Source of the DNA: Xanthobacter sp. YC-JY1
GTDB taxonomy: Bacteria; Pseudomonadota; Alphaproteobacteria; Rhizobiales; Xanthobacteraceae
Length of the DNA: 64,000 nucleotides
NCBI RefSeq assembly: GCF_021730305.1
Contig: NZ_CP032674.1
Location: forward strand, 5,150,001 to 5,214,000
Reading direction: 5' to 3'
Shown: positions 48,075 through 55,299 of the stretch, piece by piece
Layout of the letters: each line of letters starts with the position of its first letter
Numbering within the stretch: the stretch's first letter is position 1
Made by a program: the position numbers and the translations under genes
The notes under the pieces: model-generated
Databases searched by the model: none
What the model was told of the DNA's origin: nothing
Seen by the model: only the letters and a program-made list of their open reading frames with translations

Positions 48075-48398
48075 GAGGCTCACCCCTGCGCGGAAGAGAT
48101 GCCGCGCGGCAAGGCCGGCAGGCAAAGGGCGCGCGGCGGCGCGAAGCCGGCTCCAGAACGTGGGACAAGTGGAGAGAGAACGGAACTCAAGCGGTAACTG
48201 GCCATGGCTTTGCCTTGGGGATTGACGGACCCAATCAAGACGCCGCGGCGGTTGCCCGCTTGTCGTTGCAGTGCGCTTCGGAAAAATCCGTGCGCCATGC
48301 GTCTGTTCTTGGCGGGGAAGCTAACACAGCGAAGCGGGGCCGAAAACCCGTCACTTGTGCGGCGCCTGCGAGAATGATTTGTGCGACGCGAAATCGCT
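48075..48398. other. Intergenic region upstream of fhcB
   Basis: No gene is supported. On the fhcB sense strand TTAGCTTCCCC (around 48327-48317) recalls the arm TGAGCTTCCTC of the mtdB leader repeat; the match is short. Nothing else recognised. Confidence 0.4.
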
Positions 48399-48752
48399 CT
48401 ACTTGAAGCAGGTGATTTCTGCTTCAGCCTGCGCCCGGCGCAGTTCTGCAATCGTGTCGTCATATTGGGGCGTGTTGCGGAAGATATTGGCCGCCTGGCC
48501 CACCCCCTGCCGCATGGAAAGGATCGTCTCGGCCGCGACATAGTGGTCGTAGGGAATGATCGAGGCGAGGGTGTCCACCGAGCAGGAACACCGGGCCATG
48601 GCCTCCCGGCTCTGGCCGTTGGCCGCCATGCAGCCGAAGACGTAATCGACGCGGGCGGAGGTGGGATAGTCGTTGTCGCTGGGGGTCGCTGCCACCGCCG
48701 CCCCGCCGAGGGCGAGCAGCAGGGCGCCGGCCTCAATGGCTCGTCGGATCAT
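48399..48752 (-). CDS. Small exported Cys-containing protein, last gene of the pqq operon
   Basis: A 117-residue protein with a signal peptide ([17 protein letters not shown]). The mature part has VDYVFGCMAANGQSREAMARCSCSVDTLASIIPYDHYVAAETIL and ends ITCFK, so four cysteines that could form disulfides or bind a ligand. ATG at 48752 lies 20 bases inside the preceding gene, so it is coupled to it. The place in the pqq operon suggests a role with periplasmic quinoproteins. I do not recognise a characterised family. Confidence 0.8.
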   Translation of the reverse strand: MIRRAIEAGALLLALGGAAVAATPSDNDYPTSARVDYVFGCMAANGQSREAMARCSCSVDTLASIIPYDHYVAAETILSMRQGVGQAANIFRNTPQYDDTIAELRRAQAEAEITCFK

Positions 48753-49452
48753 AGGCGATGCTCTCCTCCCACAGGGTGCCCCCTGGCGCGTCAGCCTTGA
48801 TGGCCAGGCGCACGATCTGGCCCGGCACATCCGGTGACACCTCGAACGTATAGGCGAGGGTATCGAGCCCCCGCATGCGCACGGCATTGGGATCGCCCTT
48901 GAACGGCGTCACTGTCACGCGCCAGCCCTTCACCGTCTGGCCGCCCACTGTGAGATCGGCGGCGGTGACGGTGGCGGCGTCGCGCAAGGCGGTGCGGATG
49001 GCGGTCTTGAAATAGCGCGGATTGCCCTTGAGCCGGCCGGAAAGGTCCCCGAGGTGGTTCTCCAGGAACAGGAGCAGCATGGGATTGGTCGTCACGCCCT
49101 CGAACGGACCGGCGGCGTGATGGCGCTCGGGCGTAAAGAAATCCACCCTGACGTCGCGGGCGTCGCCGCCGTTGGCGCTCGCCTCGATCATCAGCACCAC
49201 GCGATCATCGAAGCTCGCGCCGAGTTCCGGATCCGCCACCTTGCGGGAATATTTGTAGGTGAGCGTCTGGCCCGCCTTGGTGTTGGCCAGCTGCGGATTC
49301 TCGAACAGCAGCGTCGCCGCATCCGGGGTCGCCTGCTGGGAGGCGGCCTGCGCCTCGGCCCCGCTCGCCGCCTGGGGCATGACGAGAGCGCCGCCCGAGA
49401 ACAGGGCCGCCATGAGAACGAGCCAGAGGCCCAACGCGCGACGCAGGCTCAC
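48733..49452 (-). CDS. Exported protein of unknown function, coupled to pqqE
   Basis: A 239-residue protein starting at GTG 49452 in a GTGA overlap with the pqqE stop. Signal peptide [26 protein letters not shown]. The mature part is beta-rich: [61 protein letters not shown], and [26 protein letters not shown] at the end. It has no cysteine after the signal, in contrast to the next gene. Function unknown; genetic coupling points to the PQQ enzyme system. Confidence 0.82.
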
Positions 49453-50630
49453 GATGCGGCTCCTTCGGGCGCCTTCGCGGGCGCTCCGCCGATGGTGCGA
49501 TAGAGATAGTCCGGCGCGACCGCCGCGGCCTCCTCCGTCGCCAGCGCCTCGACGCGGGCATGGAAGGGCGAGAGCGAGCAGGCCGGGTCGGTCGCCGCCG
49601 CGTCGCCCACCAGCGCCATGGCCTGGCAGCGGCAGCCGCCGAAATCCATCTCGCGTCGGTCGCAGCTGCGGCACGGCTCGCGCATCCAGTCGGTGCCGCG
49701 GAAGGCGTTGAAGGCCGGCGAAGACTGCCAGATGTCGCCGAGCGCGCGGTCGCGCACCGACCAGAATTCGAGGTTCGGGATGCTTTCCGCCGCATGGCAG
49801 GGCAGCACCCGGCCGGTGGGGGTGACATTCAGCGTCCGCCGGCCCCAGCCGCCCGAGCAGGGCTTGGGATAGCGGGCGTAATAGTCGGGGATCACCATGT
49901 CGATGACTAGGATGCCCTCAAGGCGGCGGCGCGCCTCTTCCACCAGGGCCACCGAGCGATCCACGTCCGGCCGCGCCGGCATCAGCGCGGCCCGGTTCAC
50001 ATAGGCCCAGCCGTAATACTGGGTGTGCGCCACCTCCAGCCGGCGGGCCTTCAGCGCCACCGCGAGGGCGATGATGTCCTCCACCTCATGGATGTTGCCG
50101 CGATGGATGACGGCATTGAGCGTCAGCGGCAGGCCGAGGTCCGTGACCTTCCGGGCGAATTCCAGCTTCGCCGCATGTCCGCCCTTGTAGCCACCGATGC
50201 GGTCGCCGGTCTCCGCGCTCGCGCCCTGCACGGAGAGCTGCACGTGGTCGAGCCCGGCCTCCGACAGGGCGTCGATCATGCCGGAGGCGCGGCCGATGCC
50301 GGAGGTGATGAGGTTGGTGTAGAGCCCCTCCGCGGCGCAGTGGGCGGTCAGCTCCACGAGGTCCGGCCGGGCTGTGGGTTCGCCTCCGGAGAGATGGACG
50401 TGAAGGATGCCCAGCGCTGCGGCCTCGCTCAGCACCCGCTTCCAGGTGGCGGTGTCGAGTTCCGCCTCGCGGCGCTCCAGCTCCAGCGGATTCGAGCAAT
50501 AGGGGCAGCGCAGCGGACAGCGATGGGTCAGCTCGGCGAGGATGCCGATGGGGTGGCCGACCGAAGGCGCCGCCTCGGGACGGGTCCCTTCGCTCACTTC
50601 CTTGCGGGCAACGGTCGCGATCTCGCTCAT
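49449..50630 (-). CDS. pqqE: PQQ biosynthesis radical SAM enzyme PqqE
   Basis: A 393-residue radical SAM protein that cross-links Glu and Tyr of PqqA. The SAM cluster motif [11 protein letters not shown] lies near residue 34, with the [10 protein letters not shown] segment after it. The C-terminal SPASM region has [18 protein letters not shown] and the cluster [21 protein letters not shown] at 50630 overlaps the pqqD stop. Upstream it works with PqqD, which presents the peptide. Confidence 0.97.
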
Positions 50631-50902
50631 GTCTCGATCACCCGGCGCGCGATGAGGCTGCCGATCATGTCGCGGACATCGTCGGCGATGACCTCGCGCT
50701 TCTCGTCGTAGCGCGCGGCGAGGGCATCCACGATCTGTCCACAGGTGCGCTGGCCGTCGACCAATTCCAGCACGGCCGCGGCGGTCTCGTCGATGTTGAA
50801 GGCGCGCTCCGGCGCCAGAAGCACATGGCGGGACCGCACCTGATCGAACTTGAGTTTCACGCCCCGCGGCAGGCGTGGGACGTCGGTTTCCTCGGCGCGC
50901 AT
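50627..50902 (-). CDS. pqqD: PQQ biosynthesis peptide chaperone PqqD
   Basis: A 91-residue protein of the RiPP recognition element type. [41 protein letters not shown] and the C-terminal [16 protein letters not shown] are typical. It binds PqqA and hands it to PqqE. ATG at 50902 follows the pqqC stop after one base. Confidence 0.95.
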
Positions 50903-50903
50903 C

Positions 50904-51725
50904 TCATTCCCCGACGATGGCGACGCCCGGTCGCCAGGCACCCGGCGCGGGCCAGCCCGGCGCCACATAGGCGAGATAGAGCGCGTCCAGTTGCGCCCAC
51001 AGCACCTCGGTCTTGAAGGTGAGGGCGCGGATGACAGCGCGCTGCTCGGCCGCCGTGCGGGCGTGCTGCTTCACATATTCGAGGGCGAAGTCGGCATCCT
51101 TCGGCGCCTGGTCGAGGCGGCGGCGGAAGTAGGCGACGACCTTCTCGTTGATGAAGTCGTAGTGCTCCAGCATGCCCGAGATGCGCTCGGCATGGATGCC
51201 CGGCGCGAACAGCTCGGTGAGCGAGGAGGCCACCGCCTCCAGCAGCGTGTTCTCGGCGACGAAGCGCACATAGGCCTCCACCGCGAACTTGGTGGCAGGC
51301 AGCGCCCCTTCCTTGGAGACCACGTAGGCCCGGTCGAGGCCGAGGCCGTCGGTGAGCACCAGCCAGCGCTCGATGCCCCCCGAATCCTTGCCGAAGCCGT
51401 CATGGTCGGTGATGCGGTGCAGCCATTCCCGGCGCAGCTCGCGGTCGTCGCAGCGTGCCATCAGGGCCGCGTCCTTGCGGGGAATGGCGGACTGGTAGCA
51501 GTAGCGGTTGAGAGCCCAGGCGCGCACCTGATCGCGGTTCAGCCGGCCGGAATGCAGCAGCTTATGGAAGGGGTGGAGGTTGTGATAGCGCGTGGCGCCC
51601 ACGGCGCGAAGCGCTGCCTCCAGACCCTCGGGCGACAGCGGCTCCAGCGGCGAGGGCAGGGCAGGGAAATCGACGGGGAGATCGGCGGCCTCGGCCAGCA
51701 CCCGGACGGCGGCTTGCGCGCTCAT
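50904..51725 (-). CDS. pqqC: Pyrroloquinoline-quinone synthase PqqC
   Basis: A 273-residue all-helical oxidase that does the final ring closure and eight-electron oxidation to PQQ. Blocks: YHNLHPFHKLLHSGRLNRDQVRAWALNRYCYQSAIPRKDAALMARC, HDGFGKDSGGIERWLVLTDGLG and FVAENTLLEAVASSLTELFAPGIHAERI, rich in the His and Arg residues of the PQQ pocket. Start in an ATGA overlap with pqqB. It has a slightly long, Pro-rich N-terminus. Confidence 0.97.
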   Translation of the reverse strand: MSAQAAVRVLAEAADLPVDFPALPSPLEPLSPEGLEAALRAVGATRYHNLHPFHKLLHSGRLNRDQVRAWALNRYCYQSAIPRKDAALMARCDDRELRREWLHRITDHDGFGKDSGGIERWLVLTDGLGLDRAYVVSKEGALPATKFAVEAYVRFVAENTLLEAVASSLTELFAPGIHAERISGMLEHYDFINEKVVAYFRRRLDQAPKDADFALEYVKQHARTAAEQRAVIRALTFKTEVLWAQLDALYLAYVAPGWPAPGAWRPGVAIVGE

Positions 51726-52621
51726 AGGGAGAACTCCATTCCGTCCCGGGCGACCGTCCAGCCAGCCGCTTCCACGGCGCGGTGCTCTTCGGAGCCATCG
51801 ATCAGCGCGGGATTGGTGTTGTTGATATGGATGAACACCCGGCGCGCCACCGGCAGGTCGGCGAGCAGCGCCACCGTGCCGTCCGCGCCGGACATGGAGA
51901 GGTGTCCCATGCGGGCACCTGTCTTGGTTCCGATCCCGGCCGCGATCATCTCGTCGTCGCGATAGAGCGTGCCGTCGAAGAACAGGAGGTCGGCGCCCGA
52001 GATGCGCTGGCGCAGGGCGTCCGTCACGGCGGCGCAGCCGGGCACGTAGACGAGGCGGCTACCGGCCGAGGTGATGGTTACACCCACCGTCGAGCCGGAT
52101 TCCTCGCCGATGACGAGGGAGGCATCCTCGCGCCAGAGCGGCACCTTCCCGGGGACGGTGAAGAATTCCATGGTCAGCCCCGGAACCGGCGAAAACGGCA
52201 CTTCGAACGAAACCGGCTCCCGGCGCACCAGCGCCTTGGAAACCACGTCGAAGACTTGATTCTGCTCGATCAGCGCGAGCGTGTCGGCCGTGCCGTACAC
52301 CTCGAACGCCTGCTGCTCCCGCAGCGTCAGCAAACCGGCTATGTGGTCCACGTCACCATTGGTGAGGACGACGGCGCGAATGGGGCTGTCGCGGCCATCC
52401 ACCCGAGGCTGAAGCGCCCGGGTCGCGGCGATCTGGGCCCGAAGATCGGGCGAAGCGTTGAGGAGCACCCACGAGGCGCCGTCCTCCGAGACGGCGATGC
52501 TCGACTGGGTTCGGGGTGTGACCCGTGGATCACCCTTCCATGCCAGTTGGCACACCGGACAGCGGCAGTTCCACTGGGGAACGCCGCCGCCGGCCGCTGA
52601 ACCGAGAACGATCACCTGCAT
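51722..52621 (-). CDS. pqqB: PQQ biosynthesis protein PqqB
   Basis: A 299-residue metallo-beta-lactamase-fold hydroxylase acting on the Glu-Tyr intermediate. It starts VIVLGSAAGGGVPQWNCRCPVC with the structural zinc cysteines, has LTNGDVDHIAGLLTLRE as the metal site (Asp replacing a usual His) and ends RRVFIHINNTNPALIDGSEEHRAVEAAGW. ATG at 52621, 50 bases after pqqA, with a distant AGGAG. Confidence 0.96.
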   Translation of the reverse strand: MQVIVLGSAAGGGVPQWNCRCPVCQLAWKGDPRVTPRTQSSIAVSEDGASWVLLNASPDLRAQIAATRALQPRVDGRDSPIRAVVLTNGDVDHIAGLLTLREQQAFEVYGTADTLALIEQNQVFDVVSKALVRREPVSFEVPFSPVPGLTMEFFTVPGKVPLWREDASLVIGEESGSTVGVTITSAGSRLVYVPGCAAVTDALRQRISGADLLFFDGTLYRDDEMIAAGIGTKTGARMGHLSMSGADGTVALLADLPVARRVFIHINNTNPALIDGSEEHRAVEAAGWTVARDGMEFSL

Positions 52622-52671: not shown

Positions 52672-52749
52672 TCAGAAATCGGCCGGCAGGTAAGCGGTGA
52701 CTTCCATGCCGACGCAGACTTCGCAAACCTGGGGCTTGTTCCAGCGCAT
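52672..52749 (-). CDS. pqqA: PQQ precursor peptide PqqA
   Basis: A 25-residue peptide too short for usual gene calling. It begins MRWNKPQV, continues CEVCVGMEVTAY and ends LPADF. The conserved Glu of GMEVTAY and the Tyr three residues after it are the atoms that become PQQ. A perfect AGGAGG lies nine bases before the ATG. It is shorter at the C-terminus than many PqqA and carries a second Cys (CEVC) where others have SEIC. First gene of pqqABCDE, with an 11-bp-period repeat upstream at 52781. Confidence 0.95.
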   Translation of the reverse strand: MRWNKPQVCEVCVGMEVTAYLPADF

Positions 52750-52780
52750 GATGGTTTCCTCCTGAGTTCTCTCACAACCC

Positions 52781-52800
52781 TCATAAGAAGATCATAAGAA
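52781..52800 (-). promoter_or_regulatory. Tandem 9-bp direct repeat, likely OmpR/PhoB-type operator of pqqA
   Basis: On the minus strand TTCTTATGA occurs twice with two bases between, a period of 11 bp, or about one helical turn. Head-to-tail repeats at this period are how OmpR/PhoB-family regulators bind, and such a regulator is encoded just upstream at 52905. The repeat begins 51 bases before the pqqA ATG. Confidence 0.6.
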
Positions 52801-52806
52801 ATTGAA

Positions 52807-52826
52807 GTAGCGAGGTTTTTCGCTAC
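52807..52826 (-). promoter_or_regulatory. Stem-loop upstream of the pqqA repeat
   Basis: GTAGCGA (52826-52820) and TCGCTAC (52813-52807) are a perfect 7-bp stem around six bases. A weak T-rich tract follows on the minus strand. It could end the regulator transcript partially or be a second operator. Confidence 0.4.
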
Positions 52827-52904
52827 AACGGATTCAAATATTGGCAGCCGAATCGGTTCCCGCAAGTGAAATCTTTTGCTGCATTGCAATACTTCTAGAG
52901 CTCA

Positions 52905-53600
52905 TCAGTGAGCTGACGGTGCGGAGAGGTCGAGCATGAAGCCGCGCCCCCGCACGGTCGCCACCTGGGGGCCGCCGGCGCGCCCCACCGGTGCTAGCTT
53001 GGTGCGCAGGTAGCCCACATAGACGTCCACCACGTTGAGCGACGCACCGCCCTGGCTGGCCCAGAGCCGGTCGAAGATCTCGCCCCGGGCGATGGGACGG
53101 TTGGGACTGGCCATGAGCAGCGCCAGAAGATCGGCCTCGCGCTCGGTGAGGCGGACATGCACTTCGCCGAACTTCGCGGTGCGGGTGGAGGGATCGAGCA
53201 CCAGCCGCCCTGCCATGACGCGGTCCGCATGGCTTTCGCCGAGGCGATGCAGGAGATGGGTGCGCAGCCGCGCCACCAACTCGCCGAACACGAACGGCTT
53301 GACGATGTAGTCGTCCGCCCCGGCGCCGAGGCCTTCGGCGCGATCGTGCACCTCGTCTTTGGCGCTGAGGAACAGGATGGGGCCGGAATGGCCGGCGCTG
53401 CGCAGCGCCCGGCACACGTCGATGCCGGAGCCGTCCGGCAGCATCATGTCGAGCACCACGGCGCAGGGATTGTACTGGCGCGCCGTCTCGAGGGCCTCAT
53501 CGGCCCGTCCCACCACGGTCACGTCGAACCCCTCGGCGGAGAGGCCGCGGCTCAGCATGGCGCCGATATCGCTGTCGTCTTCCACCACCAGGATGTTCAT
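52905..53600 (-). CDS. OmpR-family response regulator next to pqqA
   Basis: A 231-residue regulator. Receiver: MNILVVEDDSDIGAML, phospho-acceptor Asp in AVVLDMMLPDGSGID, Thr/Ser in ILFLSAKDE, Lys in DDYIVKPF. Winged helix: VRLTEREADLLALLMASPNRPIARGEIFDRLW then NVVDVYVGYLRTKL. Start behind AGGAGG. The gene follows its histidine kinase (88-base gap) and lies directly before pqqA, whose leader holds a repeat of the right type. Regulation of PQQ synthesis or methanol oxidation is an inference from place; QseB/CopR-like regulators look similar. Confidence 0.92.
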   Translation of the reverse strand: MNILVVEDDSDIGAMLSRGLSAEGFDVTVVGRADEALETARQYNPCAVVLDMMLPDGSGIDVCRALRSAGHSGPILFLSAKDEVHDRAEGLGAGADDYIVKPFVFGELVARLRTHLLHRLGESHADRVMAGRLVLDPSTRTAKFGEVHVRLTEREADLLALLMASPNRPIARGEIFDRLWASQGGASLNVVDVYVGYLRTKLAPVGRAGGPQVATVRGRGFMLDLSAPSAH

Positions 53601-53688: not shown

Positions 53689-55299
53689 TCACACGGTCGG
53701 GCCGGACTCGGCTGTTGGCTCGCTCGGCGCGGCTGCAGCGGCCTGCGGCAGCGCGATCGCCACCCGGGTGCCGCCCTTCTCCCCGTCCTCCAGTGTGATA
53801 CGTCCGCCGTGCCGCGTCACCACCCAATCGGCGAGGGCCAGCCCGAGGCCGAAACCCTCGGCGCCGCCAAGCGGCCCGCCCCGCGCGAACCGCTCGAACA
53901 GGCGGGTCCGGGCCTCGGGCGGAATGCCGCACCCGTCGTCGGTGATGCTGACGATGTCGACCGCTTGTCCCTCCGCGTCCGCGCCAAGGTCGACCGAAAC
54001 CGTGACACGGGTCAGCGGCCGGCCATGGCGCAGGGCGTTGTCGATGAGCCCTTCAACCACCTGCCGCAGCCATTCGCGATCCGCATGGACGAGGAGCCCC
54101 GGCTCCGGCGCGTGGAGCACCAGCGCCACCCCCTGCCGCCGCGCCACCGGTTCCAGCCCCGCCACGGCATCGGCCAGGAGGGGGGCGAGGGGCGTGTCCT
54201 GGAACACCAGCTCGATCTCGCCGCTCTCGGAGCGGGCCACCCGCAGCATGTCCTCCACCCGGCGATGGAGCATGCCGGCGCGCTTGCGGATGGTGGTCAG
54301 CACCGAGCGGCTCAGCGCCTCCGGTATGGCCGGGGCGCGCTTGGTGACGTCGCATTCGCCGATGATGACGGTGAGGGGAGTGCGCAGTTCATGGCTCACA
54401 TCGGTGAAGAAGCGGCGCCGGGAGGCATCGATGGCGCCGAGACGCGCGTTGGCCTCGGTAAGATCCGCCGTGCGGTCGGCGATGGTCTTTTCCAGCTCCG
54501 CCCGGTCCTGCGCCACTTTCCGTTCACGGCGCGCCAACAGGGCGGCCATGCGGTTGAAGCGGGCCATCAGGACGCCGAGTTCATCGCGCTGACCGATGGC
54601 GAGCCGGGCAGACAGGTCGCCGCGGCCGATGGCGGCGGCCGCGCGATCGATCTCCTTCAGCCGGCCGAGCAGCGGCTGGGCCAGCGCGCGATAGAGCACC
54701 AGTGCCGCGGCGAACACCGCGAGGGCAATGGCCACCGCGCCGATCCGCAGCCGGTCCGCCAGCGCCACCGCCTCCTCCCGCGCGGCCGTGACGCCGCGGC
54801 GCTCGCTTTCCACCAGCAGGGACAGCGTGGGCCCGGCCGAGGCGGCGAAGGCGTTGAGGGAGCCGCGCACCCGGTCGCCCCGGCGCATGGTGTCCGGGTC
54901 ACGGGTCGCGGCGGTGATCTGTCGGTCGAGGGAGATGAAGTCCGCCCTGAGACGGGCCAGCAGGCGTTCCTGCGGCCTCAGGCCGCTCAATGTATCGGGA
55001 GCCGCCTGCACCGCCTTCACGGTGGACGCCTCAAGCAGGGCCGAGACGCGGGAGCGCGCATCCTCAAGCCGGCCGGCGCTCGCCGTGGGGCTCTCGGTGG
55101 CGGCGATGGCGGCGAGGCCGAAGTCGGAGAGGCGGGCCGAGATCTCGGTCAGCACGTCGAGGCGCTGCTGGGCCGAGACCGCCGCCTCAAGCGCCCCGTC
55201 CACGGCGCGCAGGGCGATCAGCACGCTGACGCCCGCAAGCACCGCGAGAATCGCCGTGGCGCCCGCCAGCGCGGCCAGCTTGAAACGGATGGATCGCAT
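53689..55299 (-). CDS. Membrane sensor histidine kinase paired with the pqqA-linked regulator
   Basis: A 536-residue kinase. ATG at 55299 (MRSIRFKLAAL) begins the first membrane segment (LAGATAILAVLAGVSVLIA). A periplasmic helical region of about 140 residues follows, then a second segment (IALAVFAAALVLYRALA), a HAMP domain, and the kinase core. The H box is FTDVSHELRTPLTVI, the N box LIDNALRHG, and the G boxes DDGCGIPPEAR and GFGLGLALADW. The sensor looks like a four-helix bundle. Gene order kinase-regulator is the reverse of the common order. The signal is unknown; an alcohol, formaldehyde or metal ion would suit the context. Confidence 0.92.
   Translation of the reverse strand: MRSIRFKLAALAGATAILAVLAGVSVLIALRAVDGALEAAVSAQQRLDVLTEISARLSDFGLAAIAATESPTASAGRLEDARSRVSALLEASTVKAVQAAPDTLSGLRPQERLLARLRADFISLDRQITAATRDPDTMRRGDRVRGSLNAFAASAGPTLSLLVESERRGVTAAREEAVALADRLRIGAVAIALAVFAAALVLYRALAQPLLGRLKEIDRAAAAIGRGDLSARLAIGQRDELGVLMARFNRMAALLARRERKVAQDRAELEKTIADRTADLTEANARLGAIDASRRRFFTDVSHELRTPLTVIIGECDVTKRAPAIPEALSRSVLTTIRKRAGMLHRRVEDMLRVARSESGEIELVFQDTPLAPLLADAVAGLEPVARRQGVALVLHAPEPGLLVHADREWLRQVVEGLIDNALRHGRPLTRVTVSVDLGADAEGQAVDIVSITDDGCGIPPEARTRLFERFARGGPLGGAEGFGLGLALADWVVTRHGGRITLEDGEKGGTRVAIALPQAAAAAPSEPTAESGPTV

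Follow-up and report, generated by a model that had tools for sequence, protein, structure and literature searches.

A direct repeat in the leader of pqqA, within the 64-kb stretch of Xanthobacter sp. YC-JY1 DNA analysed here (the window), contains a 16-bp core box that we predict, with a probability of roughly 0.8, to be the MxbM operator, MxbM being the product of the response-regulator gene immediately upstream. Conservation of the box, its concentration at a small set of targets and its co-occurrence with MxbM make this the most likely reading. The preliminary description of this DNA had proposed that the OmpR-type regulator next to pqqA acts through the 11-bp repeat, and the comparison makes this very probable, the exact core TCTTA-N6-TCTTA being present in 23 of the 27 pqqA leaders linked to MxbM versus 0/29 control leaders.

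MxbDM has long been known as a genetic requirement for methanol dehydrogenase. What is gained here is a candidate MxbM operator, three predicted targets and an unexpected downstream position; the 16-bp box common to the pqqA, mxaF and PQQ_ABC_bind promoters, which tracks MxbM across families, is a defined and testable sequence. With a candidate operator at three promoters, the mode of action of MxbM becomes directly testable, and the location of the box downstream of mapped transcription starts raises a mechanistic question. A search of the open-licence literature, outside which key older papers lie, found no description of the box or of an MxbM binding site; the available passages of PMC5784242, PMC7391723, PMC9320726 and PMC3615186 describe no MxbM binding site and do not state that MxbM acts directly, nor do those of PMC11845868, PMC12403871 and PMC10613068.

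The mxbDM-pqq locus and its repeat

The genes are ordered mxbD-mxbM-pqqA-pqqB-pqqC-pqqD-pqqE on the minus strand. The mxbD gene (53689-55299, from a likely ATG start at 55299 in an ORF spanning 55389-53689) codes for a membrane histidine kinase with HAMP-HisKA-HATPase domains in Pfam, and mxbM (52905-53600) codes for an OmpR/PhoB-type regulator with a receiver and a Trans_reg_C (winged-helix) domain. The mxbM stop is separated from pqqA by 155 bases, a recount that corrects the earlier figure of 156. The 25-aa PQQ precursor peptide is encoded by pqqA (52672-52749), followed by pqqB (51722-52621) and, as ORFs listed, pqqC (50904-51725), pqqD (50627-50968) and pqqE (49449-50630); all five products exceed their NCBIfam cut-offs. 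Formylmethanofuran genes lie beyond pqqE, with fhcA, fhcD and fhcC above cut-off and fhcB below its own, and two intervening minus-strand ORFs (48080-48736 and 48733-49674) have zero Pfam matches. From 55299 to 43383 on the minus strand, mxbD, mxbM, pqqABCDE and fhcB, A, D and C share one direction.

By sequence and by place, the kinase-regulator pair is MxbD-MxbM, a known system and not the candidate new C1 regulatory pair that it had been taken for. The regulator is 62-66% identical to its Methylobacterium counterpart at the same place before pqqA, and the kinase is 48% identical over its full length to the kinase preceding the Methylobacterium sp. R2-1 regulator, with full-length similarity of both proteins judged against Methylobacterium sp. 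R2-1 and M. brachiatum rather than AM1 itself. The regulators of these two, the best named relatives, likewise lie directly before pqqA, and the kinase-then-regulator order directly upstream of pqqA is found both here and in locus L018. Within the window's family, 14 of 149 genomes encode the regulator at E <= 1e-45, and pqqA follows it in all 14. In passages of PMC9320726, the gene adjoining pqqA in M. extorquens is named mxbM; the shared place, order, similarity and this naming together lead to the assignment. The likeness to MxbDM of Methylobacterium/Methylorubrum thus covers gene order, the site directly before pqqA and sequence identity, whereas the window's organism comes from another family and its system is known from sequence. 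MxbDM is required for mxaF expression in Methylobacterium/Methylorubrum, according to passages of PMC5784242 and PMC10613068; published passages also place it in the switch by which lanthanides select between mxa and xox enzymes, and report that pqqBCDE of strain 22A go up only with methanol plus calcium.

The recognition helix NVVDVY(V/I)GYLR is present in 30/30 MxbM loci, the V/I position being its sole variation, and overall MxbM identity goes down to 54% in the alignment. The sensor region of the kinase has no Pfam name. In the AlphaFold prediction for the kinase (mean pLDDT 80.5, pTM 0.42), residues 4-225 form nothing but helices, and among the 50 listed PDB matches almost all are titled as kinase catalytic parts, so they suggest no ligand for the MxbD sensor.

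The repeat itself was borne out. The pqqA sense strand, which is the minus strand, carries TTCTTATGA-N2-TTCTTATGA at 52800-52781, N2 being TC; the whole segment, TTCTTATGATCTTCTTATGA, consists of two perfect 9-mers with a period of 11 bp and ends 31 bases before the pqqA start codon. Of 20,000 dinucleotide shuffles of the 155-bp mxbM-pqqA intergenic stretch, 3 gave a perfectly repeated 9-mer with a period of 11, and 29 gave one when every period between 9 and 12 was allowed. The full repeat has one exact copy in the 5.39-Mb genome and three places at <=3 mismatches. Inside it lies the core box TCTTA-N6-TCTTA (52784-52799, minus strand), the proposed MxbM operator, which reads TAAGA-N6-TAAGA on the plus strand. 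OmpR/PhoB-type operators are head-to-tail repeats at 10-11 bp, and the TAAGA half-sites stand head-to-tail about 11 bp apart, as such an operator requires. A short conserved motif resembling AAGAAA, reportedly noted by Zhang and Lidstrom in 2003 at promoters of methanol oxidation, may have been a first glimpse of half the box. An Rfam scan of the 64-kb window gave zero matches at the gathering score.

Conservation and genomic targets of the core box

Conservation in close relatives had been named beforehand as a check, and it held: the exact core is present in 16/16 aligned pqqA leaders (0.01 expected in shuffles), in all of which mxbM adjoins pqqA, and in 7/7 further leaders of genus g128, which we take to be Methylobacterium or near kin. 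In a set of 30 regulator loci, pqqA was found downstream in 13 and not found downstream in 17; nine of the 13 have the exact core, namely the seven of g128 and two from the aligned set of 16, and the other four are all g96. Three loci (L240, L250 and L251) keep the box at pqqA even though mxbM is kilobases away. In genus g96, where MxbM is near pqqA (about 1.2 kb away in L179), no box was found at <=1 mismatch in 4/4 loci; three g96 leaders have, by eye, weaker forms with the same period, such as ACTTATAAATTCCTTAT. Genus g81, which we guess to be Hyphomicrobium-like, has the exact core in 0/16 pqqA leaders and lacks it from the whole genome in 4/5 cases; a one-mismatch form is present at -150 to -184 in nine of the 16 leaders.

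Control pqqA leaders, from relatives in which MxbM was not found, have no box at <=1 mismatch (0/29), a count in which many genomes are close kin (g25) and any genome could hold a missed MxbM, since the survey scored up to seven candidates per genome. These controls are genomes outside the 41 MxbM matches in 397 genomes, two 397-genome draws being taken as identical, and 29 of 30 loci were used (L115, with pqqA not located, was dropped).

Exact copies of the core occupy three places in the window's genome: before pqqA, before mxaF, and in the intergenic region between PQQ_ABC_bind (TIGR03863), the gene of a PQQ-linked transporter, and a DUF3280 gene (PF11684; Pfam description DUF2380). The mxaF copy is 263 bp upstream of the gene, which is followed by mxaJ and mxaG. 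A reversed control pattern likewise has three exact places, and at <=1 mismatch it has 40 places versus 11 for the box; the count of the core is not above chance, and it is the location of the places, not how many there are, that carries the claim. These three promoters are the candidate MxbM targets in this genome, with strong sites predicted at contig positions 5202784, 3427403 and 5372803. The eight one-mismatch places beyond the exact ones have no recognised C1 or PQQ gene in their surrounding ORFs. That the adjacent system controls pqqA and other methanol genes, as the preliminary description had supposed, is thus well supported by comparison, with the core at mxaF and at PQQ_ABC_bind/DUF3280.

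The same targets recur across genomes. Sixteen MxbM-bearing genomes have 38 exact places, of which 33 are at targets (pqqA 16, PQQ_ABC_bind/DUF3280 13, mxaF 4). Another 22 genomes, from other families and with MxbM relatives, have 27, of which 14 are at targets (pqqA 10, mxaF 2, PQQ_ABC_bind 2), the remaining 13 comprising three coding-sequence coincidences and ten places near none of the reference genes. By comparison, 0/13 exact places are at targets in 15 genomes that have pqqA but in which MxbM was not found. In these counts L269, off-centre on its site at a contig end, was scored as no target. Fisher's test of 47/65 versus 0/13 target places gives p = 9e-7, a value that is too small because the genomes are related. 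Upstream of PQQ_ABC_bind in 27 genomes without a found MxbM, the box is present at <=1 mismatch in 0/30 (30 of 35 matches). Sites in L232, L233 and L234, near xoxF-like genes, were rejected as targets and counted as coincidence because they fall where the signal-peptide coding sequence of the following gene begins.

The search before mxa and xox genes that had been proposed as a check bore out mxaF and not xoxF. Stretches upstream of mxaF have the box at <=1 mismatch in 12/14 (0.145 expected), at the leader position in 10/14. The interval from AGACA, the -35 element, to the start of the box is 50-52 bp in 14/14 mxaF regions, four of which have weak boxes with positions chosen by eye (two mismatches in L207, L209 and L211; three in L215). 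Upstream of xoxF the exact core is found in 0/16 and a form at <=1 mismatch in 1/16 (0.12 expected), and xoxF was left out of the target count; at <=2 mismatches, 10/16 have a match, versus 1.6 expected.

Some of these regions carry additional forms. Some 300 bp upstream of where the xoxF match begins, five g23 loci (L219, L222, L223, L226 and L230) share the near-identical AAAATCATAATAAGA, with two mismatches, which may be a site of low affinity for MxbM, and L221 has a one-mismatch form upstream of xoxF. In five of six g23 genomes (L208-L212), a second one-mismatch box, ACTTAT-N5-TTCTTA, lies about 441-457 bp before mxaF and may serve a divergent gene.

Promoters and the position of the box

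Upstream of the pqqA core box we predict a -35 box, TTGCGG (52860-52865, minus strand), and 17 bp past it a -10 box, AATATT (52837-52842), whose end is 37 bp from the core; transcription would start near 52830. This is the counterpart of the M. extorquens AM1 pqqA (pqqD) promoter, which passages of PMC9320726 give, from primer extension, as TTGCAG-16-CGATAT-7-G, written TTGCAG-16-CGATATacctccgG, with the start 95 nt before the gene; the same source reports that dRNA-seq of strain DM4 has no start between mxbM and pqqA. A counterpart of the AM1 promoter is found by scan 31-37 bp before the box in 21/23 leaders, as the best candidate in 18 and the second-best in three; the other two were read by eye, and L007 and L017 fall outside the 21/23 count. 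The window differs from AM1 in its TTGCGG-17-AATATT and in that its start is a predicted one, whereas the AM1 start is mapped. The box would then span about +32 to +47 in the window, and about +29 to +44 in L018.

For mxaF, the start given in passages of PMC9320726 is AAGACA-18-TAGAAAatatagG, at a distance of 167-168 nt from the gene; dRNA-seq located it in DM4, and S1 and run-off mapping did so in AM1. The mxaF region of Methylobacterium sp. R2-1 (L214) has AAGACA-18-TAGAAA with a start at -168, so that its one-mismatch box lies at +16 to +31. If the Methylorubrum starts hold, the pqqA and mxaF boxes are both predicted to lie inside the leader, downstream of the start and at a near-constant spacing from the promoter. 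At PQQ_ABC_bind/DUF3280, read by eye in seven loci of the window's genus and G057, the operator box is flanked on each side, at a distance of 10-11 bp, by a box of TTGCC or TTGC type. A site upstream of the -35, or overlapping it, is usual for an OmpR-type activator and a downstream site is unusual. The box therefore resembles OmpR/PhoB-type operators in its direct TAAGA half-sites, its period of 11 bp and its place upstream of the predicted -35 at PQQ_ABC_bind/DUF3280, but would depart from them at pqqA and mxaF, where it is predicted to fall downstream of the start.

Orientation varies at mxaF. The mxaF box of the window's genus is oriented opposite to the pqqA box, and the exact box in the g128 mxaF leaders L238 and L253 has its TCTTA form on the sense strand. 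L214, L238 and L253 each have two opposite boxes about 25 bp apart downstream of the mxaF promoter; the second, TCTTA-type box has one mismatch in L214 and is exact in L238 and L253, and the first is weak in L238.

Between the predicted pqqA start and the box lies a perfect 7-bp hairpin, GTAGCGA-AAAACC-TCGCTAC (52807-52826, minus strand). Other pqqA leaders also have a hairpin at this position, and of 26 leaders tested 22 score a shuffle z below -1 (mean -2.4); its sequence varies across genera and the pairing tends to stay, and it may be a 5' stem that stabilises the mRNA.

Proposed mode of action and alternatives

We propose that MxbD perceives a signal through its helical sensor region and phosphorylates MxbM, and that phosphorylated MxbM would sit on TAAGA-N6-TAAGA as a head-to-tail dimer, both MxbM as the binder and the dimer being deduced. 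Bound at pqqA, mxaF and PQQ_ABC_bind/DUF3280, MxbM would tie the provision of PQQ to methanol dehydrogenase, for which it is the cofactor, with a sign of regulation that we deduce for each site. At PQQ_ABC_bind/DUF3280 of the window's genus, the box would occupy the usual place of an activator, 10-11 bp upstream of the predicted -35s. At pqqA and mxaF it is predicted to lie in the transcribed leader, so activation there would need to act from downstream or relieve a block. Since MxbDM is needed for mxaF expression, and pqqBCDE of 22A go up only with methanol plus calcium, MxbM is more likely to activate than to repress mxaF and pqqA, albeit from a downstream site; less probably, it relieves a block at these leader sites, or one form of it acts there as a roadblock. 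As a tentative model, which we hold to be somewhat doubtful as a whole, MxbM might activate or license transcription from operators inside the pqqA and mxaF leaders at a near-constant promoter distance, together with an upstream operator at PQQ_ABC_bind/DUF3280, and the Methylobacterium-type mxaF control element might consist of two opposite boxes about 25 bp apart.

Co-occurrence with MxbM is no proof of binding, and the box could belong to another regulator that travels with MxbM, such as MxcE or a further OmpR-type protein, leaving MxbM an indirect role. Retention of the box at pqqA where mxbM is not adjacent would agree with this, as would the position of MxcQE above MxbDM in strain AM1, given in passages of PMC5784242. 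We nevertheless consider another regulator unlikely: mxbM is beside pqqA in 16/16 aligned leaders and its recognition helix is almost unchanged. An 11-bp direct repeat also fits the OmpR/PhoB fold of MxbM.

Binding of MxbM to DNA has also to be set against a role of the repeat as RNA in the pqqA leader, in protein binding, stability or translation, with the other promoters a separate matter. The repeat does lie within the leader beside the hairpin, which scores z below -1 in 22/26, but the core is upstream of the predicted promoters at PQQ_ABC_bind/DUF3280 and oppositely oriented at mxaF of the window's genus; both fit recognition of double-stranded DNA, and a signal acting as RNA only is quite improbable. 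Lowest in our estimate, and very improbable, is that the repeat is a product of chance or a promoter -10 element. TATGAT within the box resembles a -10, as does TATAAT in L012, yet g128 and L018/L019 lose these letters (TCTTAGG, TCTTACG) and keep TCTTA-N6-TCTTA, and the promoter candidate 31-37 bp upstream ranks best or second-best in 21/23 leaders; chance is further disfavoured by the 3/20,000 shuffles, a figure that does not yet count conservation.

In Phaeobacter sp. 22II1-1F12B (L020), the regulator gene before pqqA encodes a protein of 47% identity whose recognition helix is similar, and after the regulator stop there is, by eye, a single TCTTA half-site 11 bp before TTGACG.
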